IMG/VR virus record: IMGVR_UViG_3300044641_003146 | Span: 1 to 20,837 of that record | Source of the DNA: a virus | Strand: one strand, 5' to 3' | Length of the DNA stretch: 20,837 bases | Shown: positions 1,544-17,849 of the stretch, in pieces | How positions within the stretch are numbered: the stretch's first letter is position 1 | How the letters are laid out: the number at the start of each line of letters is the position of its first letter | Made by a program: the position numbers and the translations under genes | Notes under the pieces: model-generated | The model's database searches: none | What the model was told of the DNA's origin: nothing | Seen by the model: the letters and a program-made list of their open reading frames with translations, nothing else

Positions 1544-2023
1544 GGGCCGTAACATGACATCCGTTGTTTTCTTCCGTCGAATCACCCGCGTGTGCGTTCG
1601 ATGCGTCGTGTCCTCGTCGATAACGTCGATCTCTGCCATCAATCGCGAATAGCCATACTGATCATCTTCCGTGTCGTGGATCACGATCACTCCAGCGACC
1701 GGCAGCAGCTTTTGCACCTGAATCCATCTTGGATGTGTCGGCGGGTCGGCATGGTCCACAAATGCCAGCCCATAGGATTCTGGCTGGAAATCATCCCACG
1801 ACGCCAGCAAGTCCAAGGCGTGCCCGTCCCACTCAAATATCTTGAACCTGTTAAGCCAGTCCGGGTTATTGTCGACCGTCGTCAGATGCCTGCCCTGCGC
1901 CGCTGCAATCTCGTGCAGGATCGGTGTGGAATAGTTGCCTGCTCCCAACTCAATGACCGGCCCAGTGGTTTCCAGCATGTGTTTGACAAGCAACCGCTGG
2001 TGTGTTGAGTAGGGATCAATCAT
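1526..2023 (-). CDS. Class I SAM-dependent methyltransferase-like protein
   Basis: 165 residues from the ATG at 2023, which overlaps the stop of the glycosyltransferase gene as ATGA; the weak GGGGCGGAA upstream fits a ribosome site. Motif I, VIELGAGNYST, is at about residues 23-33, an acidic residue ends strand 2 (TTVDNN, D51), FVDHADP lies near 88-94 and GVIVIHDTED near 111-120. This is the Rossmann-like order of class I methyltransferases, in a shortened form. The frame stays open upstream to 2248, but that stretch lies inside the glycosyltransferase gene and is not methyltransferase-like. Coupling to the glycosyltransferase suggests it methylates a sugar or the same acceptor. The substrate cannot be read from the sequence. 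Confidence 0.72.
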   Translation of the reverse strand: MIDPYSTHQRLLVKHMLETTGPVIELGAGNYSTPILHEIAAAQGRHLTTVDNNPDWLNRFKIFEWDGHALDLLASWDDFQPESYGLAFVDHADPPTHPRWIQVQKLLPVAGVIVIHDTEDDQYGYSRLMAEIDVIDEDTTHRTHTRVIRRKKTTDVMLRPAAPDK

Positions 2024-4698
2024 GATTCCGCCCCGAGGTAAATGCGATTGATTTCGCTCGACGCCAGTTTTTCCTCGTGAGTAAACACTGACGCATTCGA
2101 AGCAATCACAAGCAAGTCTTTGGAGTTTGGAACGTCCAGATACACTCCCGGCTTTCCGAACTTGACCGCCGCTCGCTGGTAGTATTCGGAATGCTCCCGG
2201 CCCCATTTGCCCGGCATGACATTGTAAAGGCCGGTTTCTTTTGCACACTCACGCGACACGACAACGCAGCAGCCGCATGTGTGACCGGATGCCATCAATT
2301 CGCCGTCTGGTTCTGCTGCCGCTCCTGTGTACGCTGGATCGTGCCACGACAAGATGCCGACCCCGTTTCTTTCCATCGCCGTCGTGTAGGTCGACTCAAA
2401 TTCATCTGACAGAACCTTCACGTCATCATCGAGCATGATTAGGTATTCATAACGACGGTCCTCCAGAAATTCGCTCAAGCACAGATTCTTGGCGTGAGAG
2501 ATTCCACCGTTGTTCCAAATTCCGACGAATCGAAAGCCTCTGCGTTTACACAAGTCCCGCACGTAGTCCTGATATTCGATCGGAGAGCCATCATCGACAA
2601 CCAGCACATCAGACGCACAATGTTCAGCGATTGAATCGAGCGTCACCACAATGTCGTTCCTGATCTCCTCCGACCCGTGCAGATTGCAGGTTGTGACGGC
2701 AATCAGTTTTCGATGGCAATGCCTCCGTGCGTTTCGTGCTGCCAATTCCCTGACCGCACCTTCGACGACTCCGCTACACATTTCCTGCGCGTCGTAGTGA
2801 GACATAATCGCTCGATTGTCACCGAACTCGCACCATGCTTCATTCGCTGGAAAGTTGTTCCCCGGCCAGGCTTCCACGCCACCGTAACCTGATTTGACAG
2901 GCTTTGTATGGGCCATGTGCTTCGATCGAACCGCAAAGAACGTGCCCGCATAGTGCCAACTAAATGCGGGAGACAATGGAGCTTTTCCGAACGCTCGCAA
3001 TGATCCAAATGTCTTGTATCCCTGAGCTATTCGCCGGACGATCTCGCCGTGATTAAAGATCACAGTCGAGTACATCACCTGAATCCACGTTTTGACCGCT
3101 GCCGATACTCGCGTCGCTGGCTTCATCCCTTTGCCGTGAGCGTAAAGGAATATATCGTTCTCGCCCTTCGGCATTCGCCTGACGAGTTCTGTAAACGTGG
3201 GATTCTCGCCCTCTTTCGTATTTGGGACCGTGAAGACTTCGAACCTGTGCGACAGTCGTGCAATTACCTCAGACGTTGGCGATGTTCCGCAATCGTTGCA
3301 CTCCGCAATGCCTACAATGCACCGGCCTGTAATCTGGCTGGCTAATTTATTCCACTCATCAACGTGGGCTTCCCAGCATCCTACGATCGGCCAGAGATGT
3401 GCCCCAAAATGAAAAACTGGCTCGCTCCTGAATGGATCTCGTGCGGGCTTTGGTGCGGCCAGCATCTCGTTGTAGAGTTGTTGATTGCTTTTGCGTGTTG
3501 AGGCTGTTCGTCGTACCGGCTTTGGCGTCTCGCACTTCGTTGTCGCAGCCGCCAGAACACCTGAAACGATTTCCCCAATCCGCTTTCGCTGCCCCTCTTT
3601 ATCGCCGTTAGCGGCTCGCCACGACTGAGGCCATGAGATTTCCGCGTAGAGTTTCTGCACGATCGCCGCATGGTCGTGGCTCGACATTCGATTGAGCGAC
3701 AGAAGATAAGTCTTACAGCTTCCGCAAGAAACAGGCTGTCCGGTGTCAGTCTGGATCGCAGCCAACATGAGCGTGCCAGCGTTGGAGCAGTTGCTACATT
3801 TGCCGCGATTCTTTGTGCTGCATGATTTCCGTTGTGGGCCTGCTGTGGCTTTCGGCTGTGTCCATGTTTGGCCCGCCAAGATTGCGTCGAGGCGTGGCTT
3901 GTTCTCACGGCACAGCATCTGGAATGTCGGTCTCAGTGCGATCCCTCTCGCTTCACAGAAGCCAGTCAGTTCGCACTTGCAGGACTCGGCAACAATGACA
4001 GGTTCAGTCGAGATATTTTTGTCGAGACTTCGACGAAACTCATTGGACCCATAACCTAAAACAACGCCATACTTTTCGAGGATATAATCAGCCCCTTGTT
4101 GCCATTCTTCCCACGACCATCCAAGTTCGTGAGACTCGTGGAAAAACAGGGGCCTGCGAATCCAATTGAACTTGACGCCGAGGCTTCGGAAGTGCTGTGG
4201 AATCCAGTAATCCCAAACCGGCTTGCCGATGCCGAATGGTGCGTCGGGAAGAGTTGCCGCGAGTTCAGGAGTCATCAGGAAAACATCAAGGCCTGAAGTC
4301 TCAAGATGCGCTTTTTTCTTCTCGCCCGGGCGATGGTTGTATCGAATTCCAATTGTCAATTCCTGCGGGGTCTTGAGTGCTTCATCAAGCAACGTCAAGT
4401 CGCCACTGATCTCAATGTCTGAATTGATCAGCATGAACGTGCCGCCGGTCTCGATCCCTGCGCGAACCAGCGAAGAGACCAGTTGCGTTTTGCGATCGTA
4501 GAGCGTCGAGAGATCATCGCAAGCAGCAGTCTCAACTCCATCCGGTAAACTCATTGCGGAGAGTTCTTCAGTGGTGTTTACGACGATTACACGAAGCCCT
4601 GCGTTCAGCCAAGACTGGATGCACAACAACTGGCGTTCGGCTCGTAACGGGCTCGGGTTCATCGACGTGATTGCCGAACAGTTTCTGCGATCACTCAC
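2020..4698 (-). CDS. Large multi-domain glycosyltransferase
   Basis: 892 residues from a GTG at 4698, which overlaps the end of the small membrane-protein gene by 8 bases; an in-frame ATG at 4662 is an alternative. Residues 12-215 look like one GT-A-type domain (MLINSDIEI at 89-97). A cysteine cluster follows (C293, C301, C304, C325, C328), resembling a zinc ribbon. A second domain at about 427-650 carries a conserved-looking LYAHGKG (518-524) and a WHYAGTF stretch. Residues 664-875 form a clear family-2-like transferase with VVDDGS (700-705), the metal-binding MLDDDV (755-760) and KWGREHSEYYQRA (831-843), like the WGxED acceptor motif of galactosyl- or GalNAc-transferases. Placement at the end of the tail operon suggests modification of a virion protein or the host surface. 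Donor and acceptor are unknown. Confidence 0.8.
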   Translation of the reverse strand: MSDRRNCSAITSMNPSPLRAERQLLCIQSWLNAGLRVIVVNTTEELSAMSLPDGVETAACDDLSTLYDRKTQLVSSLVRAGIETGGTFMLINSDIEISGDLTLLDEALKTPQELTIGIRYNHRPGEKKKAHLETSGLDVFLMTPELAATLPDAPFGIGKPVWDYWIPQHFRSLGVKFNWIRRPLFFHESHELGWSWEEWQQGADYILEKYGVVLGYGSNEFRRSLDKNISTEPVIVAESCKCELTGFCEARGIALRPTFQMLCRENKPRLDAILAGQTWTQPKATAGPQRKSCSTKNRGKCSNCSNAGTLMLAAIQTDTGQPVSCGSCKTYLLSLNRMSSHDHAAIVQKLYAEISWPQSWRAANGDKEGQRKRIGEIVSGVLAAATTKCETPKPVRRTASTRKSNQQLYNEMLAAPKPARDPFRSEPVFHFGAHLWPIVGCWEAHVDEWNKLASQITGRCIVGIAECNDCGTSPTSEVIARLSHRFEVFTVPNTKEGENPTFTELVRRMPKGENDIFLYAHGKGMKPATRVSAAVKTWIQVMYSTVIFNHGEIVRRIAQGYKTFGSLRAFGKAPLSPAFSWHYAGTFFAVRSKHMAHTKPVKSGYGGVEAWPGNNFPANEAWCEFGDNRAIMSHYDAQEMCSGVVEGAVRELAARNARRHCHRKLIAVTTCNLHGSEEIRNDIVVTLDSIAEHCASDVLVVDDGSPIEYQDYVRDLCKRRGFRFVGIWNNGGISHAKNLCLSEFLEDRRYEYLIMLDDDVKVLSDEFESTYTTAMERNGVGILSWHDPAYTGAAAEPDGELMASGHTCGCCVVVSRECAKETGLYNVMPGKWGREHSEYYQRAAVKFGKPGVYLDVPNSKDLLVIASNASVFTHEEKLASSEINRIYLGAES

Positions 4699-4846
4699 GA
4701 GGGAAGTCCTTCTCGATGTTTTGCTTCATCGTATACTCCCAGTGCTGCACTGAAGCATCGCCAATCACCTTGGCGAACATGCGAAAAAAGTGGACTCCGA
4801 ATTGCGCCACAACAGGAATCAGCAGGACAAGTATGAGTCGTTTCAT
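4691..4846 (-). CDS. 51-residue protein with one N-terminal membrane segment
   Basis: Read from the ATG at 4846, whose A is the last base of the preceding stop (TAATG). The start MKRLILVLLIPVVAQFGVHF is a basic dipeptide followed by about 17 hydrophobic residues: a membrane anchor or signal peptide. The rest is a short amphipathic, charged tail ending NIEKDFPRE. The stop at 4691 overlaps the glycosyltransferase GTG by 8 bases, so it fits tightly between two real genes. A holin-like or spanin-like role is conceivable, but only one membrane segment is present and no lysis enzyme is near. It could instead be a membrane partner of the glycosyltransferase. Function not assigned. Confidence 0.62.
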   Translation of the reverse strand: MKRLILVLLIPVVAQFGVHFFRMFAKVIGDASVQHWEYTMKQNIEKDFPRE

Positions 4847-6087
4847 TAGCAGTTGCTTTCAAGTTCGTAGACTAAAACATCCAACACTTGATGCCCCCAC
4901 CCATCGTACAACTCCATCCCTTCGACTTGATCGAGAACCGCCGGGCACTCACACGTCAGTACCACATAGCTACTTTGCACCCAGAAATCCGGACGCTCAC
5001 CCCCGAGCCACCGATAATATATACAATACTGACAACCGATACACTCGCAGACAAGAATTACTTCAAGAGCATTCTCTCGGGTTCCCCCCATTGGCAGGGG
5101 GAACGTCCCGGACACGCTTCCTCGATAGCCGGGGAACGGTCCCGGAGACCACGGAGCGCAGGTGATTGTCGGCTCGTCCTGCATTCCATAAGTCAGATCG
5201 AAAGTTCGCGACGCGCTGCCGTGTGTCCCGTTGCCAGAAGCCCAGACGAGTCGAAGTATTTCGCCCATTGGTCGACCGCAGATGCAATTGCCGATCACGG
5301 TTGGGCAGTTGTCACAATCCTTGCAGCGGAACGTGAAGGAAGAACCATCATAGAGTTCAACGGTCCCGGACATGTCATCGCATCCCGTGACAAGTGCAGT
5401 CGTCTCTTCGCCGTTCGCTGTCGCCCTGACAATGCAGTTCCCGTAGTCGTCTCGATCTAGTGCGAGCCGGATTGTGAAGTTCCCAATTGTGCCTGACCAG
5501 ACTGGTCCTTCGCAGTCACTGTAAGCCGTATCACCCAGTTCGCCAGAGTAGGTGTCGACCGCGTACATTATTCCGCCGTAGGAAAGAACCTCGCGAACTT
5601 CAACACACAATGCCCTGCAAGAGCACCTGCAATCCCCGCAAAAGAAATCATTGCACCCTGTGTCAGGATCGACAACTAACGGAAGTGGTCGGGGGTCTCG
5701 CTTGGTCCACGTTAGTGTTCCGCTGTCATATCCGACCGTCACGCCGACCGATCCGCCGGGATACCGACATGACGCACCTTGGTAACAGGTCTCCCGATAG
5801 ACTTCTTCACCGTCAAGCAAAACAACATACTCGCACTCGTCGTACTGGCTGCGTTCCCAATACGACAGAAATGAAAGCCCCCCAACGGGACCCTCCCACG
5901 TTGAGCCGGTAAACGCCGCCGAGCCATATGCGGTGGCTTCGCCGTACACTTCCCATTCTAGACATAGAGTGCAGGGCAGCACCCCGCAGCACTGGTCAGC
6001 AGGAGCAGCGTCACACGCTTCCACCATAAACTCTGAGCAAGGCTTGAGCGGTGTTGAGGATGCTTTCCGTAAGTACCTCGGGGGCAT
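4846..6087 (-). CDS. Cysteine-rich modular protein, probable tail-tip or adhesion component
   Basis: 413 residues from the ATG at 6087, joined to the preceding stop as TAATG; a GTG three codons earlier is possible. It has 31 cysteines, about 7.5 percent. They cluster at residues 33-42, 145-161, 255-270 and 347-381. Each of the first three clusters is followed by about 90-100 beta-rich residues, and EGPV recurs at 65-68 and 193-196, so three diverged modules are likely. There is no signal peptide or membrane segment. The CxxC and CxC pairs could bind zinc, or form disulfides once the virion is outside the cell. Position after tape measure and tail-tip genes suggests a fibre or receptor-binding role. 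No named family is recognised. Confidence 0.7.
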   Translation of the reverse strand: MPPRYLRKASSTPLKPCSEFMVEACDAAPADQCCGVLPCTLCLEWEVYGEATAYGSAAFTGSTWEGPVGGLSFLSYWERSQYDECEYVVLLDGEEVYRETCYQGASCRYPGGSVGVTVGYDSGTLTWTKRDPRPLPLVVDPDTGCNDFFCGDCRCSCRALCVEVREVLSYGGIMYAVDTYSGELGDTAYSDCEGPVWSGTIGNFTIRLALDRDDYGNCIVRATANGEETTALVTGCDDMSGTVELYDGSSFTFRCKDCDNCPTVIGNCICGRPMGEILRLVWASGNGTHGSASRTFDLTYGMQDEPTITCAPWSPGPFPGYRGSVSGTFPLPMGGTRENALEVILVCECIGCQYCIYYRWLGGERPDFWVQSSYVVLTCECPAVLDQVEGMELYDGWGHQVLDVLVYELESNC

Positions 6088-6890
6088 TATATGCACTCCG
6101 GCTGTGCGCAGAGGTCATCAATGATCCATCGGGGATCACACGCCCCAGTCAGCGGGTACATGTATGTGGCTCGACCCGTCGTGCCGACCAAATCACCCGG
6201 AGTCAGTCCGTATAGGTAATTGCAGATGTCGTACACATTGTACGTGCCTTCGTAGTTAGCTCCCGGTGGTGTCCCTGTGCAGCTTAGATTGTACCAAGTT
6301 GCCGTTGCGACTAGCGTCGTTTCGGAAACGTAGTCGGTATCGGGGCAAAGAACATCTTCGATCGTGAACCATATCGTGTGACCGCCGCCTGAACCGCCAC
6401 CAGCAAATGCCCCGATAATCGCGGCAGTGGTTGACTCTGGCGTGATTGCATAATCACCATAAACAACAAACGGCCCTGCCCCCTCTTCGACTTCCCACGA
6501 GGATACAATCGGCAAATACTGCGCCCCAGCTTCACTCGGTGGACTTCCAAGCATCACGACAACGCCGAAGCGATACGCCCATCCAGCCGCATCAACTGCG
6601 ATCTCATAGGGAGAATTGAATAAATAAACACCATCGGTTGTCGTTGGCTTCGTGACATTAACAACAGTTCGTTCGCCGTAGACTGCAGTCCCCGTGATCT
6701 GCATACAAGCAAAGGCAGGGATAGCTTCTGCAGTGGTATTCTTTACAAAAACGCGATGCGGTGACGGCTCGTCAAGCGGTCTGCGCTGCGGGTAGTTCTT
6801 CGTCAATTGCGATTGCAATTGCTGGCGGGAAAGATAATCCTGCCAAACCAGTCGCATTTGCTCCGGAGATAAAACGCCGATCGCGTCCAT
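6087..6890 (-). CDS. Virion-associated protein, probable tail-tip component
   Basis: 267 residues from the ATG at 6890, two bases after the stop of the previous gene. The first 45 residues are charged and helical (QMRLVWQDYLSRQQLQSQL). A beta-rich body follows, then a glycine hinge (GAFAGGGSGGG, about 162-172) and a C-terminal part of about 85 residues carrying six of the seven cysteines. Helix, beta body, flexible hinge and compact cysteine-rich end is a layout seen in many fibre or adhesin proteins, but no family is recognised. The stop overlaps the next start as TAATG. Tail function is inferred from position only. Confidence 0.65.
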   Translation of the reverse strand: MDAIGVLSPEQMRLVWQDYLSRQQLQSQLTKNYPQRRPLDEPSPHRVFVKNTTAEAIPAFACMQITGTAVYGERTVVNVTKPTTTDGVYLFNSPYEIAVDAAGWAYRFGVVVMLGSPPSEAGAQYLPIVSSWEVEEGAGPFVVYGDYAITPESTTAAIIGAFAGGGSGGGHTIWFTIEDVLCPDTDYVSETTLVATATWYNLSCTGTPPGANYEGTYNVYDICNYLYGLTPGDLVGTTGRATYMYPLTGACDPRWIIDDLCAQPECI

Positions 6891-7539: not shown

Positions 7540-8400
7540 TTATGTTAGCCCAAGGGCTGAGTAAGGCAGAGTGCCGTAAAGTTGCGTGTAATTGAACAGC
7601 GCGGCAGACGGATTAAGTTCTTGCGTGCCGTTCGCTTTCAGCAGGACCGGCTTTGTGACTTCCTGCCCCAACTGGTCTCTTGCTCGCACAGGTATCACAG
7701 TCGAGGCTGGCGTGGCGGATGCGTTGACGTAAAGCCCTTCGTGCCGCCATCGCTTGTACCACGCCTGAGCGTCTGTCGCGCCCATGTATGGAATCCGAAA
7801 CTGAATGCGTGCGGTCACGTCCCATTGTTCCAGCGGCTGACCAAACTTGAATTGATTCTTTGCAGAGTATCCAACTAGCCGAGCCGTGCCTGGTGGCCAG
7901 CCAAGAAACGTGTCGGAGTTTGTCGCGTGTCGATACTGCCCTGCAATGTAGGCATCGAACAGAAAGAACTTCCTCCGAATAATGCACACTGAATCCGACA
8001 GATCGTAAGTCAGCCCTTCGACCTGCTCATAGTTTGCGGTCGTGATTGCTCGCCCGTTGTAGTCCCTATCGATCGGCTCTGATGATGTCGTGTCGCTCCA
8101 TTCTACATCTACGTTTCCGTCAAATCTCTGGCCTTCATAGGAAACCGTCACCATCCAAAAAATTGGCCCCATAGGCTCCGCCGTCTTGGTAATGACGAAC
8201 GAATCGGCCCCGGAACGATGCCTAGCCCCATAGGCCGGAATTCCAGTTGCGGCCAACACATCCTCGGCACTATCGCCCGATTCCGCAAGAACCTGATATC
8301 CTTCAGTGTGCGAGAACTTCGTGGCAAAACTGTCGTACTTTTCGGAAGTGCCTGAGCCGCCTTCCTTGCTCCACATTTGCGTCACGTTGATGGCTGCCAT
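7540..8400 (-). CDS. Probable minor tail / distal tail protein
   Basis: 286 residues from the ATG at 8400, overlapping the tape-measure stop as TAATG. The sequence is rich in aromatic residues and beta patterns (GPIFWMVTVSYEGQRF near 78-93; WDVTARIQFRIPYMG near 194-208) with no membrane segment. The gene right after the tape measure in siphoviruses usually encodes the distal tail protein that caps the tube, or a tail-tip hub part. This supports the call, but no motif proves it. The C-terminus is proline-poor and compact (LYGTLPYSALGLT). Confidence 0.6.
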   Translation of the reverse strand: MAAINVTQMWSKEGGSGTSEKYDSFATKFSHTEGYQVLAESGDSAEDVLAATGIPAYGARHRSGADSFVITKTAEPMGPIFWMVTVSYEGQRFDGNVDVEWSDTTSSEPIDRDYNGRAITTANYEQVEGLTYDLSDSVCIIRRKFFLFDAYIAGQYRHATNSDTFLGWPPGTARLVGYSAKNQFKFGQPLEQWDVTARIQFRIPYMGATDAQAWYKRWRHEGLYVNASATPASTVIPVRARDQLGQEVTKPVLLKANGTQELNPSAALFNYTQLYGTLPYSALGLT

Positions 8401-10037
8401 TACGCAATCGCCTCCATCTGCAACTTATTAGCGGTATTGACTGCAACCGCTTGCAGTGCTCGATTTTGATCATCATCGAGACGCACAAGGATTCTGGCTC
8501 GCGGCGGCTTCGGCGGCGGTGGATCTTTTAGCAGCCGAATGATTTCCTGCATTTGATCGGGAAGTCTTGTTCCCGGTCCTCGTGTCAGCAATCGCCCCTC
8601 GGTCGCTGGAATTCCCCCCATGATTACAGACGGCCGCATCTTCAGATCTATGCTGCTTGCCGCGTTCTTGACCTCACTGGAAAGCGTCGACCCGACGCCC
8701 AACATTCTTTCTTGCATCTTGCTGGAAAACTCTTCTCCGAGCCTACCGCCAACAGCACCAATCTTTTCGGCAAGATCCTTTTCACGTTCCGTTAACTGGC
8801 GGGCCGCGATCTCCGGCAGCGATGTCAGTTGCGATTTAAAACCATCAAGCAGGCTAATACTAGCCGCTTCTCCCAGTCCTGCCATTAGCCCTTCAATTCC
8901 GCCTTCACCGCCTGACGCAATAAACGCGAAAATCTGATAGACCGCCTCACCGATGATTCGCCCAGCGTTTGTGATTATCGTGATCACGCCATTAAATGCG
9001 TCTTGGATCAGGTTGATAAAGTTTTCACCAAACCACATGACATACGCAGGAATTGTTTCCGTTAGCGTGTGCATGATTGTTTCGGAAATCGTTATCATGG
9101 CCAGTTCAGCCGCTGCCTTTGCGATCTCCCAAACGCTGCCAAGATTTGTGACGACTACCTCCAGAAACGTGAACGCACCGATCACAATATTGATAGCCTG
9201 AATGACCTTTTCTTTGACGTAATCCATAATTGGCCCGATGTTTTCAAGCACCTGTGTCGCATATTCGACAGCGGGCACAAGCAACGCATCAAAGGACGTC
9301 GCCAACTGTTGTAGCCCTGCATTGATCAACACGCGAATCGGGGCAATGATTTTGCCGATCGATTCCATCAGCGATGACATTGCGGAGTCAGCACGACGCC
9401 CAGAACCAGCCACAGTCGTCATGTCGGTCGCTTGTGCCGCCAGTCCCTGATTGGCAATCGCCATCACGGCGGCGAGCTTCTCTTGATTCGTCCGCATGTA
9501 CATAATCTGCGGATTGACGGCCACGAATGCGTCAAAGTTGCCTTCAAGGGCCGCTTTTAGATCGCCCATTGATGCCGCTGCATCTTTGCCCATCGCGTTA
9601 CCGAGGCCGATAGCGGCCTTGGCAGCGTCGTCCATCTTGCCCGTGGCAAAACCCATTCCGGATGCCTGCTGCATCAATGCGAGGGCTGCATTGTCAGAAA
9701 CGCCCGTCATCTTCTCAATTGACTTGGCGACGTCCTGCATTTGCGACGATGCGGCCGATGCTCCGCGAATCTGTAACGCTGAGTTTAGCCTGCGAACAGA
9801 TTCTGTCTGTGCGTCAAAAGCCGCATTGATGCGATTGATTCCGCCTAGTGCCGCCATCGCGGTCTTGACTGCTGCGTAGACTGCCGTGAGTGTTCCCGTA
9901 ATAGCCGCCAGTCGTTGCGTAGACTTGCTGACCGACTCCGTCTTTTGCTCAAGACGCTGAAGCGATTTTTCCACAGCGGACATCGCAGGCTTTGCCTGGT
10001 CTTTTCCGCCGATGACAAAATCAATGCCGTTGCTCAC
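8400..10037 (-). CDS. Tail tape measure protein
   Basis: 545 residues from a GTG at 10037 whose TG is shared with the stop of the chaperone extension (GTGA). The N-terminal 45 residues are helical and charged, followed by a hydrophobic stretch (about 45-70). The middle holds long Ala/Met/Ile-rich helices and hydrophobic segments (about 225-380). A proline-rich break (DPPPPKPPR, about 508-516) precedes a short tail. Alpha-helical composition, hydrophobic patches and position after the chaperone pair are the signature of tape measures. At the usual 0.15 nm per residue a tail of roughly 80 nm is expected, short for a siphovirus. No lysozyme or peptidase domain is visible inside it. Confidence 0.85.
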   Translation of the reverse strand: MSNGIDFVIGGKDQAKPAMSAVEKSLQRLEQKTESVSKSTQRLAAITGTLTAVYAAVKTAMAALGGINRINAAFDAQTESVRRLNSALQIRGASAASSQMQDVAKSIEKMTGVSDNAALALMQQASGMGFATGKMDDAAKAAIGLGNAMGKDAAASMGDLKAALEGNFDAFVAVNPQIMYMRTNQEKLAAVMAIANQGLAAQATDMTTVAGSGRRADSAMSSLMESIGKIIAPIRVLINAGLQQLATSFDALLVPAVEYATQVLENIGPIMDYVKEKVIQAINIVIGAFTFLEVVVTNLGSVWEIAKAAAELAMITISETIMHTLTETIPAYVMWFGENFINLIQDAFNGVITIITNAGRIIGEAVYQIFAFIASGGEGGIEGLMAGLGEAASISLLDGFKSQLTSLPEIAARQLTEREKDLAEKIGAVGGRLGEEFSSKMQERMLGVGSTLSSEVKNAASSIDLKMRPSVIMGGIPATEGRLLTRGPGTRLPDQMQEIIRLLKDPPPPKPPRARILVRLDDDQNRALQAVAVNTANKLQMEAIA

Positions 10038-10381
10038 AGGTTCCGCCTTTTATCTCGTTCGCTTTCAATCCGATGCTCTTCACTTCGCAGAATGCTTCTC
10101 AGTTCAAACCACCACGCTGACTGATCAAGGATTCCACCGATGACGGGCAAATGATGTTCGCTCGCAGTTATAATTTGAATATCACTGTTCAATTCTGGCC
10201 CAATAAACCTCATTGGGCATTTAGTGACTTCGAACCACCCATCTCGGCAATGTTCACATCCATCTCCGCTGCATTCCGGACACTCAATCTCCGCTGGCTG
10301 TTCCGGTGTTACAATGTCGCGACAACGCCCAACGCAGGACTTGCAAAGCTCACCGCATCGCACGAGGGCTGCAACTCGGAT
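10034..10381 (-). CDS. Tail chaperone extension (gpT-like) in the -1 frame, zinc-finger-like
   Basis: This frame is open from the slippery run at 10381 to the TGA at 10034, giving 115 codons. It is exactly the -1 frame relative to the preceding chaperone. Slippage would produce a fusion of about 226 residues (111 plus 115), compared with lambda gpGT. A separate start at a GTG (10363) is possible but has no clear ribosome site. The extension carries nine cysteines in its first half, including CGELCKSC, CVGRC and CPECSGDGCEHC, the last like the CxxCxGxG repeat of DnaJ zinc fingers. The second half is helical and ends in a strongly charged ESERDKRRNL. In lambda the T part recruits the tail tube protein. 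Binding of metal here is inferred. Confidence 0.75.
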   Translation of the reverse strand: MRVAALVRCGELCKSCVGRCRDIVTPEQPAEIECPECSGDGCEHCRDGWFEVTKCPMRFIGPELNSDIQIITASEHHLPVIGGILDQSAWWFELRSILRSEEHRIESERDKRRNL

Positions 10382-10713
10382 TTTTTTTTATCTTCTGGAG
10401 TCGCTGACGTTGATGCCGCTAAGAACGTGAATACTTCAACCAACTCATCCAGCGTCAATACATCGCCAATTGCCTCACGACTAAAATCAACGGGAATGTT
10501 TTCCCATCCGGTCAGGCACATGGCCGCCGCATCAAGCAGTGCGTCCATACTGGCTGCGATGTCGCCACCGCCCAGACCTTGCAGCAATGCAACCAATCGC
10601 CGCTGCTGATTCAGCGTGGGCGTTTTCGCAAAGATCCTTGGCTGCGGAGTCTTGTCGACGTCGCACGCCAAAACCATTGTCAGCTTAGATGAAGGATCGA
10701 GACTTCGAGGCAT
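10309..10713 (-). CDS. Tail assembly chaperone (gpG-like)
   Basis: 134 residues from the ATG at 10713, seven bases after the tail-tube stop; longer starts reach back into the tube gene and were not chosen. The protein begins MPRSLDPSSKLTMVLACDVD, followed by helices rich in Leu and acidic residues (NQQRRLVALLQGLG, DALLDAAAMCLTGW, LDELVEVFTFLA). The run EDKKKSE at residues 107-113 spans the A9 slippery sequence; past it the zero frame goes on only 23 codons. Size, fold-like composition, location between tail tube and tape measure, and the slippery site all match the gpG/gpGT arrangement of siphoviruses. Confidence 0.78.
   Translation of the reverse strand: MPRSLDPSSKLTMVLACDVDKTPQPRIFAKTPTLNQQRRLVALLQGLGGGDIAASMDALLDAAAMCLTGWENIPVDFSREAIGDVLTLDELVEVFTFLAASTSATPEDKKKSELQPSCDAVSFASPALGVVATL
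10381..10389 (-). promoter_or_regulatory. Probable -1 ribosomal frameshift site (A9 run)
   Basis: On the minus strand nine A residues follow GAT and precede TCC. In the zero frame they read AAA AAA AAA, containing the heptamer A AAA AAA. A -1 shift gives ATC CGA GTT and enters the 115-codon extension with no stop. Position near the end of the gpG-like gene is the standard place. Slippage by RNA polymerase on the same run is a second way to the same product. No strong downstream pseudoknot was recognised by eye. Confidence 0.78.
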
Positions 10714-10720
10714 AAACCAA

Positions 10721-11656
10721 TCAATCAAAAGCAATTGTGAGTTCGGTATCAACAGCACTTCCGGCCGTACAAAGCCACGTCAGGTCGTCTGTCATGATAT
10801 CATTTCGGCCGCCCTGTTGTTTATTCTCCAATTGAGCTTTAGGGGCTGCAATTGTGATCGATGACGCGACGGCTCCAACTCGGAACGAGAACGCCTGCGG
10901 GGAACTTGTTAGCCAAAGAGCGTCACGGTCCTGCGTTGCGACGAGCAGCGATTCTGGATCAGCCGTGATTACCGGGGCGCGATTTGTGACAATCGCGGAA
11001 ATGTATCCACTGCGATCAGTCGCATTGACGCATTCACGCATCACAACAGAGTTGCCCGCGTCAACTTCGACTGAGCTTGTGCAGAGTGCAACCGAGTTCC
11101 ATGTCAACGCACCGGCCGCAACTCTCAACGGAAGGACAGTCGGGTACGTCGGAGCGATCAGTGCTGTGTCGGTTTCGTTGCTGGAGTACTTGCCCGTGAA
11201 AGTGAATTCGATGAATCCAGTCTTGCCGGTTTCTAGCATGAACTTGAACGTGCCCATTGCTCCAGAAAGCAGCGACCGCTTGCCGTCTTTGTAGTGGCCG
11301 ATCGTCAGCGTCTTGACACCTCCAGCTTGCCCCGGACCTTGCGTGACTGGCGAGAATGTTCCGGAGGTGTCGACCCATCCGCAGGCAGGAAGCAACACGG
11401 CCGCCCAGTTTGGAATATTTGTTCCGTCATAGGTCAAAGCGTGTTTGATAACGCATGTCCCTTGCATTCCTTCCGGAATGCCCGGCAGGTAATTGAAGCC
11501 ACCCTGACCTTTGCGTCGCGTGATTGCAACGTTCGGCTGAATGCTAAATTCCTCGGCGTTGTAGACCGCTTCGGCAGTCGTCAGCGATTCCGCCGTTCCA
11601 ACCGTCGTTTCGACCTTGGCTGCAAATACTGCTCTGCGACGAAGTAAACCAGACAT
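10721..11656 (-). CDS. Major tail tube protein
   Basis: 311 residues from the ATG at 11656, with an AGGAT ribosome site about 8 bases upstream. It starts MSGLLRRRAVFAAKVETTVG, a common opening of tube proteins, and continues as alternating beta strands with many Thr, Val and Gly (TLTIGHYKDGKRSLLSGAMG, then FIEFTFTGKYSS). A C-terminal extra domain of about 100 residues is likely (RAPVITADPESLLV onward). It stands directly upstream of the chaperone pair, as expected, since the chaperone acts on the tube protein and the tape measure. Confidence is from composition and order; no single diagnostic motif exists. Confidence 0.78.
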   Translation of the reverse strand: MSGLLRRRAVFAAKVETTVGTAESLTTAEAVYNAEEFSIQPNVAITRRKGQGGFNYLPGIPEGMQGTCVIKHALTYDGTNIPNWAAVLLPACGWVDTSGTFSPVTQGPGQAGGVKTLTIGHYKDGKRSLLSGAMGTFKFMLETGKTGFIEFTFTGKYSSNETDTALIAPTYPTVLPLRVAAGALTWNSVALCTSSVEVDAGNSVVMRECVNATDRSGYISAIVTNRAPVITADPESLLVATQDRDALWLTSSPQAFSFRVGAVASSITIAAPKAQLENKQQGGRNDIMTDDLTWLCTAGSAVDTELTIAFD

Positions 11657-13849: not shown

Positions 13850-16045
13850 TTACGCCCCGTTGTGCTTGTACAGGCCACGGAAGTCGATTGGAGCGACTCC
13901 AAATGTCTGACGCACCTTATACTTGTAAACGTCCTTGTCAAAGTCCCATTCGTTTTCAAGCACTGGAGACTGCTCGCCTTCGAGGAAAGTTACTTCGACA
14001 GTGTCGACCTGACTGTTGCTGGCAGCCAAGTACCACGCTGTGGAACTGTTGGCATCCAACAGCGGCTCGACGATGACCTTCAATGGTCGATCGCCGTTTG
14101 GTCCGTAGATGTTTTTCGTGTTGCTGTTACCAGCAGCAGAGCCACCGACGGAAGGATCTGCAATAGACCCGAGCAACTGCAGGGCGGTCGCAGAGATTGC
14201 CGCAGGAACAATCAAGAATGACGGCTGAATGTTTAGGATCACATCCGACCGCAGGCCCTTCTTGGTCATCATGGAAATGAATGCCGTGTTGAGCGTCGTC
14301 ACCGATGGAGCACCCGCACCAGTCGCAAGGTTTGCATGGCCGCCAGCAGTTGTCTGGGCAGTTGCATTAAACAATGCGCCCGTGTCGCCCATTGTCGGAT
14401 TGCTCGTCAAGACGCTGTAGACGGCCTGGTTCTGCAAACGTCGGCATGCTGCACCCTGCATTGCAGGAATGCGGCTGATTGCGTCAAGATCATCATTGAC
14501 GACGGTTTCCCATGTCACGGTGAACATGTTGCCGTACTTGTTAATCTTGTACGTTTCCTTCGTGTCGGACATTCCCGCGTCTTTGTACTCCTTGCCTTCT
14601 GGCACCATTTCGGGAGTACCCATTTCACTAAATCGAATGCGGTTGATGTTCTTGAAGTCCGCAGTCGTTCCGGCATCGCGCGCCCACATGTTCCAGGTGA
14701 ACGGAGCTTCCTCGTATCCTGCCAGAAGCGTCTTGTTGGCCGCGTCGAGCAGAAGATTCGAAAAGCTTCCAGTGGTGTGGTACGCATCACGTTGAATTCG
14801 GAATCGATTCATTGTTCCCGGATGGCCCATCGCAACCAGTGCGATGTCTTTTGCTGCCATGCGTCGAACATCGCAGCCCATCTTTTCCGCGTACATTTCG
14901 GCAACGCGGCCCAACTTCATGCTGACGAAGTCCTGATGTCCGGCCGCTGGATTTGCCAGAGTCTGGTTTCGCATTCCGCTGGCTCGCAGCGTTCTCATGA
15001 TCAGGCCATCACGGGCCGCTGCAAACAGCTTGTCATCGGCTGATTCTGTGACGCTGACACGTTCGGTCGACTGACCGGCAGGTTTATTGGCCATTCGCTC
15101 CAGTATCCTTGTTCTGGCAGTGTTGAGGTCAACGCCGTCGTCACACAGACTGTCGGCAACTGATCGCTCGATTTTGTGAACAGTGCAAAGAGCCTGAATC
15201 TCCTTGCGTCGTTTCGCATCAGTCCGCAACGCACGGCTAATAGCTTCCTCAACTTTCTTCTTGTCTTCTTCTGGATCAGTCACACCGTCCATGTTTTCGA
15301 CTTTCTTTTCTTCCTCTAGTGGCTTCATGTCGCCGTCCATGTTCTCAACTGGTTCCGCTGGCTCTGCCATTGCGGATGTGCCGAGCTTTCCGACGACCCA
15401 CGCCAAGATCTGATTTGGGTCCGTCATGCCTTCAGGGAGCCCCATTGCTGCCAGTTGCGTCAATAGTGCCTCGTCCATTCGCGTTACCTTTCTTTCGAGG
15501 TCTGTATATGACCTACGGACAGTAGAGTGCTCGTCTGCACCAGTGGCACAAATCGAAGCGTTATGTGGCTGCCATCGCACATGGATGACTGCCGGACCAT
15601 CGATCACCGCACCGCGTTTCGTCGTGTAGCTTTGGCCGTGTGGCACAAAGAGCGATTCCATCGGAACGGCTGTGATTGAAAAATCTGTTATGTGTCCCTC
15701 ATCCATTCGCGTGCGAATGACCTGCGATTCTGGATCGCTGGCGAATGCAGGAACGCCGTGAAGTTCACCGTCGATGACTTTCATCTGGCGGATAGAACCA
15801 AAAATGTTTCTGACGCTTCTGTCGTCGTGTGAATCAACGATTGGAATCTGTGACTGGTTGGCGCGAAGTACCACGCCATCCATCAACAGGACTTCATTGA
15901 TAACGTATCCACGTTCTTCGTCGTATCGTCGCACTGGTGTTTCTGTGGCAATGACAACGTCCGTGACACCAGACGAAATGCCGACAGATCGCATGACGAC
16001 CGATGGAGCTTTTAATGGTGGCAGCTTGCCTTTTTTACTTGGCAT
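13850..16045 (-). CDS. Fused prohead protease, scaffold and HK97-fold major capsid protein
   Basis: 731 residues from the ATG at 16045, which has GGAG 7 bases upstream and overlaps the portal gene by 11 bases; a longer start at 16099 would overlap by 65. Residues 1-165 are an HK97-type prohead protease with the catalytic-looking His73 (VDSHDD) and Ser123 (ITDFSITAVP). Residues 185-330 are charged and helical, with VENMDG occurring twice (233-238 and 249-254), as in a scaffold or delta domain. From about 335 to 731 the sequence is a major capsid protein of the HK97 fold (GYEEAPFTWNMWARDAG at 443-459; VTWETVVNDDLDAISRIP). In many phages protease and capsid are separate genes. The third catalytic residue was not identified. 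Confidence 0.85.
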   Translation of the reverse strand: MPSKKGKLPPLKAPSVVMRSVGISSGVTDVVIATETPVRRYDEERGYVINEVLLMDGVVLRANQSQIPIVDSHDDRSVRNIFGSIRQMKVIDGELHGVPAFASDPESQVIRTRMDEGHITDFSITAVPMESLFVPHGQSYTTKRGAVIDGPAVIHVRWQPHNASICATGADEHSTVRRSYTDLERKVTRMDEALLTQLAAMGLPEGMTDPNQILAWVVGKLGTSAMAEPAEPVENMDGDMKPLEEEKKVENMDGVTDPEEDKKKVEEAISRALRTDAKRRKEIQALCTVHKIERSVADSLCDDGVDLNTARTRILERMANKPAGQSTERVSVTESADDKLFAAARDGLIMRTLRASGMRNQTLANPAAGHQDFVSMKLGRVAEMYAEKMGCDVRRMAAKDIALVAMGHPGTMNRFRIQRDAYHTTGSFSNLLLDAANKTLLAGYEEAPFTWNMWARDAGTTADFKNINRIRFSEMGTPEMVPEGKEYKDAGMSDTKETYKINKYGNMFTVTWETVVNDDLDAISRIPAMQGAACRRLQNQAVYSVLTSNPTMGDTGALFNATAQTTAGGHANLATGAGAPSVTTLNTAFISMMTKKGLRSDVILNIQPSFLIVPAAISATALQLLGSIADPSVGGSAAGNSNTKNIYGPNGDRPLKVIVEPLLDANSSTAWYLAASNSQVDTVEVTFLEGEQSPVLENEWDFDKDVYKYKVRQTFGVAPIDFRGLYKHNGA

Positions 16046-17849
16046 TTTCTGTCTCCGGAACCTGATCCAAATCCGTGTCAACAGTTCCGTCTGACGCATC
16101 CGCCAAAAGCATCTGTGCTGTCGCTTCAGTCAATCCGAGCGACTGCAGAAACACCTTTGATTTTGTTTCGCTAGCAGTGCCTGCAATGTACTCCGCAAGA
16201 ATGTCTTCAATCGCCTTGCGATTGCGGCCCCATTGCAGCCGAGACATGTCAGACATCTCACCGGCTGGCGGTGCTGGTTGTCCCGGTTGCGAAACGGCAG
16301 ACGCCGCTGCCATTTGCTGCCCTTCAGCCTGCGTTGCGTCGACGTTGGCCATGTCGGCTGTGACGAGACCGAGTTGACGTTTCAGCTTTTCTTCTTTGGC
16401 TCGCTGGTAGAAGACATTTTTCCAGTGTTTGCCACGCTGTCCAAGCTCGTCCTGGTATGTGCTTTGAAACGAGTTCAACGCAGAATCTGACGCGGCCTGT
16501 TCGCTTTGTGGGTCTACCCATTCCCATGCGGGAGTTTGCCACTCGACCGCAGTCGCGGAACGACGGTCGGCAAGTATTTCGGACATCGACGGGAAGCCGT
16601 CGACGCCAGCAGTTGCCGCCTGATCACAGAACCTATCCCAAATCGGCTGGCACATGTGCTGTACGTCATAGCGTTGCCACCTGCGGAAACGACGACGATC
16701 TTCAAGCATACTCGTACGGCTGCTGCTGTAGCTCGTGCCGCTGTAGTTCCGGCTGACGACTTCGTAAGACAGGCCCGTACCGACCGAAATGCCCCGCAGC
16801 ATTAAATTGATCCACGGTTCAGACGCTGAGTTCGGACGCCCCGGATTGATCGACTCAACTGATTCCCCTGGCTGCAACCGTACGACCATCGCCGGCTCAA
16901 GATACTCGAACTGGTTGCCGTTGATGTCGCTCGACTCATCGTCGGTCGATGGCATTAAACCAGTGCCGCCGCGTCCGTTAGTCGTGATCGCGACGCCAAA
17001 ACATGAGGCAACTGCTGACGCCTGTATTTCGTTGTCGACGTATACGCCGAGATCTCGCAGCCATGAAAGCACTGGAGCAAACCACGACACGCCGCGAGTT
17101 TGCCCAATCCGGTCGACTCGGTACAAATGCAGGATCTCTTTCGCGTCGATCCGTACCGGAAGAACACGGGTGGCGTATGGTCCGTTTGGATGCTCTGGAT
17201 AAATCCAGTAGGCGAGCGGCTTTCCGAGATCGTCGAGTTCAACGCCTCGGATGACTTTGTTGCCGTCCTTGCTGTGAATCTTGTAGGTGTCTTTGTCGGT
17301 AGCCAGTCGGTCGGCTTCGATCAGTTCCAAGGCAAGCGGCACAGGGCGATAGATGCCACGATACTTGTTCGATGGAGTGTTGACGAGGTGAATCAGCACC
17401 TCCCCAGCCTCGACCATTTCACGCTGTGCAAGCTGTTGGATTTCCGCAAAGTTCAAACGTCCGTTGACGTCACAAACCTCGCACCACTCCTGCCAAACCT
17501 TGTCGCGGACTTCGTTGACGTCTTCGACGTCCGTGCCTTCTGGTGTTTCAACCTGAGACTGTGCGGTTATGCCCGTTCCGATGACAGAACTGACAATTGT
17601 GTCGACGACGCCCCAAGCATAGGCGTTATCACGAACCAACGCGCGGGACCATGCTCGAAGCGAATCCGCTCCAAACGGCCCAAGCAGTTCACTGTCTGCT
17701 GACTGGTTTTTCGGTTTCTTGTTGTTCGTCAACCGGCTGGCTTCTGCCCCGGCGTACATTCGCTCAAGCGTTTTGCGTTGCTGCGTTCGTCGCACTGCAG
17801 CCGCAGGACTAAACACGCCGATAACTTTGTCTAGGGCTGTGCCAATCAT
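16035..17849 (-). CDS. Portal protein, lambda family
   Basis: 604 residues from the ATG at 17849, sharing ATGA with the end of the gpW-like gene. Lambda-type portal features are the RDNAYAWGVVDTIVSSVIGTG stretch at 73-93, split here as RDNAYAWGVVDT and SSVIGTG, then ELIEADRLAT (175-184), RVDRIGQTRGVSWFAPVL (244-261) and the stem region DNEIQASAVASCFGVAITT (272-290). NYSGTSYSSSRTSMLEDRR at 368-386 is the conserved Ser/Arg segment of this family. The C-terminus is acidic and variable. Twelve copies would form the DNA gate of the head and bind the terminase. Length is normal, slightly above lambda gpB. Confidence 0.92.
   Translation of the reverse strand: MIGTALDKVIGVFSPAAAVRRTQQRKTLERMYAGAEASRLTNNKKPKNQSADSELLGPFGADSLRAWSRALVRDNAYAWGVVDTIVSSVIGTGITAQSQVETPEGTDVEDVNEVRDKVWQEWCEVCDVNGRLNFAEIQQLAQREMVEAGEVLIHLVNTPSNKYRGIYRPVPLALELIEADRLATDKDTYKIHSKDGNKVIRGVELDDLGKPLAYWIYPEHPNGPYATRVLPVRIDAKEILHLYRVDRIGQTRGVSWFAPVLSWLRDLGVYVDNEIQASAVASCFGVAITTNGRGGTGLMPSTDDESSDINGNQFEYLEPAMVVRLQPGESVESINPGRPNSASEPWINLMLRGISVGTGLSYEVVSRNYSGTSYSSSRTSMLEDRRRFRRWQRYDVQHMCQPIWDRFCDQAATAGVDGFPSMSEILADRRSATAVEWQTPAWEWVDPQSEQAASDSALNSFQSTYQDELGQRGKHWKNVFYQRAKEEKLKRQLGLVTADMANVDATQAEGQQMAAASAVSQPGQPAPPAGEMSDMSRLQWGRNRKAIEDILAEYIAGTASETKSKVFLQSLGLTEATAQMLLADASDGTVDTDLDQVPETENAK

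Follow-up and report, generated by a model that had tools for sequence, protein, structure and literature searches.

The window analysed here, which spans all 20,837 bases of an IMG/VR virus record, carries two overlapping reading frames, G and T, between its tail tube and tape measure genes, which we interpret as a lambda-type G/GT locus where T would be reached by -1 programmed ribosomal frameshifting near the end of G (probability about 0.93). This interpretation, already advanced by a sequence-only reading of the same DNA, is supported by the gene order, by the -1 relation of T to G shared by all distinct loci compared, by a synonymous constraint that appears limited to the slippery heptamer, and by the fact that no start for T is conserved. 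A -1 frameshift at the tail-chaperone gene is a known device of tailed phages; the frameshift type is therefore not new, and what is new here is an example with an unusual add-on domain. The features of the locus are as follows:

8400..10037, minus strand: tape measure protein (weak PHROG 2335 match; Pfam TMP_2 below cut-off)
10034..10381, minus strand: T, the -1 frame extension, 115 codons (ATC to CTG) plus TGA 10036-10034, from translation and homologues
10309..10380, minus strand: zero-frame tail of G overlapping T, dual coding, from frame comparison with relatives
10309..10713, minus strand: G, likely tail assembly chaperone, 134 aa, most likely from ATG 10713 to TAA 10311-10309
10361..10363, minus strand: GTG in the T frame, proposed alternative start, not conserved
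10381-10389, minus strand: A9, the slippery run, GAT AA[A AAA AAA] TCC, with A_AAA_AAA in phase with the zero frame
10390-10388, minus strand: TAA at the 5' border of A9, closing the -1 frame, from translation of the -1 frame
10721..11656, minus strand: tail tube protein, upstream neighbour, from position and tblastn matches to annotated tail tubes of Rhodobacter and Agrobacterium phages

All the genes concerned (tail tube, G, T and tape measure) are encoded on the minus strand, so that the T9 seen on the plus strand at 10381-10389 is an A9 on the coding strand, and it is the only homopolymer of at least 7 bases in the 20.8-kb window. As first noticed from the letters alone, the run lies near the 3' end of G and holds A AAA AAA in the zero frame, which reads GAT AAA AAA AAA TCC and terminates 24 codons further on, stop counted. 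The -1 frame reads a TAA covering the T of GAT, followed by AAA AAA ATC CGA GTT, and stays open for 115 sense codons from ATC 10381 to TGA 10036-10034, which agrees with the length originally given. Because the TAA closes the frame directly upstream, the -1 frame of the window can be entered only inside the run; a -1-frame TAA overlapping the first As of the run is likewise present in all GAT-type relatives (i.e., those with GAT before the run).

The minus-strand genes are ordered as terminase, portal, fused protease/major capsid, neck, tail tube, G, T and tape measure. The fused head gene (13850-16099, minus strand) encodes one 749-aa product, whose match is to PHROG 4523, a head protease fused to the major capsid protein. 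Two further minus-strand products are of separate interest: a very cysteine-rich 416-aa protein of the tail module (4846-6096), with many CxxC motifs and no Pfam or PHROG match, and an 892-aa protein (2020-4698) that carries a family 2 glycosyltransferase domain at its C-terminus, present on a small phage contig. At the end of T, the tape measure start codon GTG (10037-10035) is preceded by AGGCGG and overlaps the T stop as GTGA (10034-10037), an overlap that many GAT-group relatives have as ATGA or TAATG; judging from this arrangement, translation of the tape measure may be coupled to the frameshifted ribosomes.

Regarding G, the mechanical open reading frame begins at GTG 10758, a start that we rejected, as several relatives stop in frame just before a conserved ATG; these in-frame stops, located few codons upstream, make ATG 10713 the most likely start, and therefore G would be 134 aa long and the GT fusion 226 aa. 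Relatives differ in where the zero frame stops, between 10 and 79 nt beyond the T reference point. Weak matches to PHROG 313 (tail assembly chaperone) were obtained for 12 of 30 G members, with a best E of 0.00037; searches with the G of the window yielded no match in Pfam and no credible sequence match in the PDB. The G model, with a pLDDT of 80-90 over residues 11-100, ranked the HK97 chaperone gp13 (2ob9) first in a Foldseek search of the PDB, although not significantly (E 0.85), and in VIA-align 2 the same structure took rank two (Z 4.8, rmsd 5.0, 90 residues aligned). Several BFVD neighbours, at E 0.004-0.1, are named tail assembly chaperone. Weak PHROG and fold matches together with gene position thus indicate that G is likely, not proven, to be the tail assembly chaperone.

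Three scans of IMG/VR recovered approximately 170 loci, of which about 120 carried T and 56 were distinct around the site. The 56 distinct loci come from many assemblies, and each of them has T in -1 relative to G, with T homology starting at the A-run. Since the most divergent T is approximately 39% identical to that of the window, these loci are not a sample of near-copies. An in-phase X_XXY_YYZ heptamer near the end of G, either A_AAA_AAA or A_AAA_AAG, was found in every one of the 56. The site types were GAT-A9-T (22 loci), GA-A9-G (25), GAT-A8-G (8) and GAC-A8-G (1), so the suggestion that a pure A9 is unusual does not hold within the family: A9 is the rule, and the nine A8G loci carry the dnaX-type A_AAA_AAG. 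No relative was found when genome contigs were searched with a T profile, and the portal protein found only a 28% match there, in a Limnohabitans contig.

Codon choice follows the heptamer closely. The two Lys codons required by it are AAA in all 56 loci; among 33 representatives these codons are likewise all AAA, whereas both AAA and AAG occur in each of the 16 other conserved Lys columns (9 in the tail tube, 1 in G and 6 in the tape measure). The heptamer places no demand on the final base of the third Lys codon, and among GAT/GAC-type loci this codon is AAA 22 times and AAG 9 times. In GAA-type loci the first A of the heptamer comes from the Glu codon, which is GAA in all 25, against 307 GAA and 164 GAG at other positions of those genes; on its own this constitutes modest evidence. 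As read from these alignments, the synonymous constraint is confined to the codons that the heptamer needs. The T protein is conserved up to the run, with K1, K2, R4, A6, A7 and R10 invariant and their codons varying synonymously. In GAT-type loci, the conservation of the first two T codons is unexplained by T itself, since under the slip model they would go unread in the T frame. In a tree of T, the A8G members, including the distant L157, surround the A9 of the GAT group, which needs about three changes, an approximate count from a tree where L042 was mislabelled (it is actually A8G) and where one alignment column mirroring the trait (column 3) was kept in. From this topology, the pure A9 in the group of the window looks like a synonymous derivative of A8G.

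The arrangement corresponds to that of lambda (NC_001416), where the order is also tail tube V, G, T and tape measure H, the -1 shift also occurs near the end of G, and the T stop also overlaps or abuts the tape measure start; the slip sites differ, being G_GGA_AAG in lambda and A_AAA_AAA in the window. The gpG:gpGT ratio in lambda is about 30:1 (PMC5009743), and PMC3711429 gives 6-7% frameshifting for HK97-like tail chaperones. In HK97, the record annotates gp13/gp14 as a -1 frameshift fusion, like that proposed here, with a different slip region (GGGAAAA). Related T domains, also in -1 to the preceding gene, are present in Rhodobacter phage RcZahn (gp27-28), Rhizobium phages RHph_TM16, RHph_I4 and L338C, and Agrobacterium phage JP1, which were reached through their tail tube neighbours; a direct tblastn of T against named phages gave no match. 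This distant family aligns to T with an hhalign probability of 95.8% (E 7e-9, 60 columns), and its slip sites are A_AAA_AAC or G_GGA_AAC. In the record stretches examined, the annotation treats these T domains as hypothetical genes of their own or as a free-standing tail assembly chaperone, and the set (L174 5398-5817, L180, L177, L181 and L182) likely represents unannotated -1 frameshifts. Separately, Synechococcus phage S-CBS1 (L175, near 5044) and Alteromonas phage P24 (L176, near 4999) display A_AAA_AAC with a zero-frame stop directly after it and, ahead of the tape measure gene, a -1 frame that stays open, and the P24 extension contains CxxC-type cysteines.

By the lambda-type frameshift model, the majority of ribosomes would complete the 134-aa G, and a fraction, with P- and A-site Lys-tRNAs on AAA AAA, would slip by -1 on A_AAA_AAA into T, producing the 226-aa GT with the junction ...EDKKK-IRVAAL...; we infer both the slippage and its level. 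By analogy with lambda, G would coat the tape measure protein, and GT, through its T domain, would recruit tail tube subunits. With regard to possible stimulators, RNAalifold applied to three subgroups found no downstream hairpin or pseudoknot common to the family, no obvious Shine-Dalgarno-like element was seen upstream of the run, and a tRNA and Rfam scan of the window gave no match. A stable hairpin (CCGCAY...RTGCGG) is located 9-10 nt after the run in L043, L093, L118, L151 and L157; it shows paired changes among some A8G members and in L157, and it is absent as such from the A9 clade. For the dnaX gene of E. coli, unrelated to G of the window, PMC3711429 describes Shine-Dalgarno-like and hairpin stimulators, neither of which was found conserved here.

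RNA polymerase slippage on the A9/T9 tract, alone or together with ribosomal slippage, would insert one A and yield the same GT; the equivalence of both routes, with a product reading ...EDKKK-IRV..., was rightly pointed out from the sequence at the outset. Polymerase slippage in vivo is efficient at nine A or T and is used by the dnaX gene of Thermus thermophilus (PMC5009743), and single-base insertions climb steeply with run length (PMC5574713), so this mechanism may contribute at the A9 of the window. Every family member keeps A8 or A9, and in the consulted section of PMC3711429, reporter cassettes from another gene family with 7, 9 and 11 A gave 10, 40 and 63% frameshifting, with the two mechanisms not separated for the 9-A cassette. 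Family members thus carry either the run type of E. coli dnaX (A_AAA_AAG, ribosomal) or that of T. thermophilus dnaX (A9, polymerase). However, the constraint at the site has a codon period, as AAG has arisen at the third Lys codon several times without loss of the in-phase heptamer; polymerase slippage is unlikely at the A_AAA_AAC (A6-A7) and G_GGA_AAC sites of the distant homologous T domains, which we count in favour of a ribosomal slip; and polymerase slippage at a high level would push GT beyond the low ratio known to be important in lambda. We therefore regard polymerase slippage as an unlikely account of the locus.

Translation of T as an independent protein from GTG 10363 had been named at the outset as a finding that would count against a fusion, and another internal start can be considered alongside it. 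Such a GTG does exist in the T frame, and the annotators of RcZahn placed the start of the homologous gene at an internal ATG. Nevertheless, no start position in the T frame is conserved: one relative (L035) has no start in its first 60 T codons, and three others (L088, L044 and L043) have none before residues 60, 38 and 34, so that their first T-frame starts fall inside or beyond the cysteine clusters. Furthermore, the residues upstream of the GTG are invariant as protein with varied codons, R4, A6 and A7, located between A9 and GTG 10363, each being encoded by two to four codons, and by eye no Shine-Dalgarno-like sequence precedes GTG 10363. Separate translation of T is accordingly very improbable. 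A sequencing or assembly error in the run, or a decayed gene, was the other doubt raised initially, homopolymers being prone to error, and it is practically negligible considering that 56 distinct loci, taken from numerous assemblies, share one frame relation, including A8G loci whose run is broken by a G.

The least ordinary part of the locus is the cysteine-rich T. The alignment of relatives displays eight invariant cysteines (15, 18, 22, 36, 39, 44, 47 and 57) and a GGxLDQS motif; neither lambda T nor the HK97 extension after the slip has any cysteine, the latter showing no detected sequence similarity to T, and the distant family of named phages shares a CxxC...GC...CPR pattern and a Gly/Gln motif with fewer conserved cysteines. 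The eight cysteines suggest a zinc-knuckle domain with two putative zinc sites, and binding of zinc by this cysteine-rich domain is probable. Searches with T retrieved no Pfam family near its cut-off (an Anti-TRAP match scored 12.8 bits, below the cut-off of 32) and no PHROG of known function. The CxxCxGxG-like spacing bears a resemblance to the DnaJ-type zinc finger and is a resemblance only, as the Pfam model of that family gave no match. The T model reached a pLDDT of 70, and the fold search with it returned no useful match. A PDB sequence search aligned 33 columns of T in the region of the cysteines with Phe-tRNA ligase (E 0.0003); homology was rejected, and the match was taken as a common CxxC-like stretch. 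The literature located on tail assembly chaperones in combination with zinc, frameshift and cysteine offered passing mentions only, as gauged by word counts. A bolder proposal, which we consider rather unlikely, is that the T half of GT is a previously unnamed zinc-knuckle through which GT would recruit tail tube in a zinc-dependent manner, with co-slippage of polymerase and ribosome in the pure-A9 clade lifting GT well above the few percent of lambda.

Taken together, the G/GT site described here is well conserved and belongs to an environmental siphovirus-like lineage without an annotated close relative. RcZahn and the Rhizobium phages are examples of named phages in which gene callers overlook half of the GT fusion. 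The natural A9 and A8G forms, one synonymous base apart, constitute a ready comparison between ribosomal and polymerase slippage, and metal binding by the cysteine-rich T would provide a handle on the function of T, which is so far mostly known from lambda.
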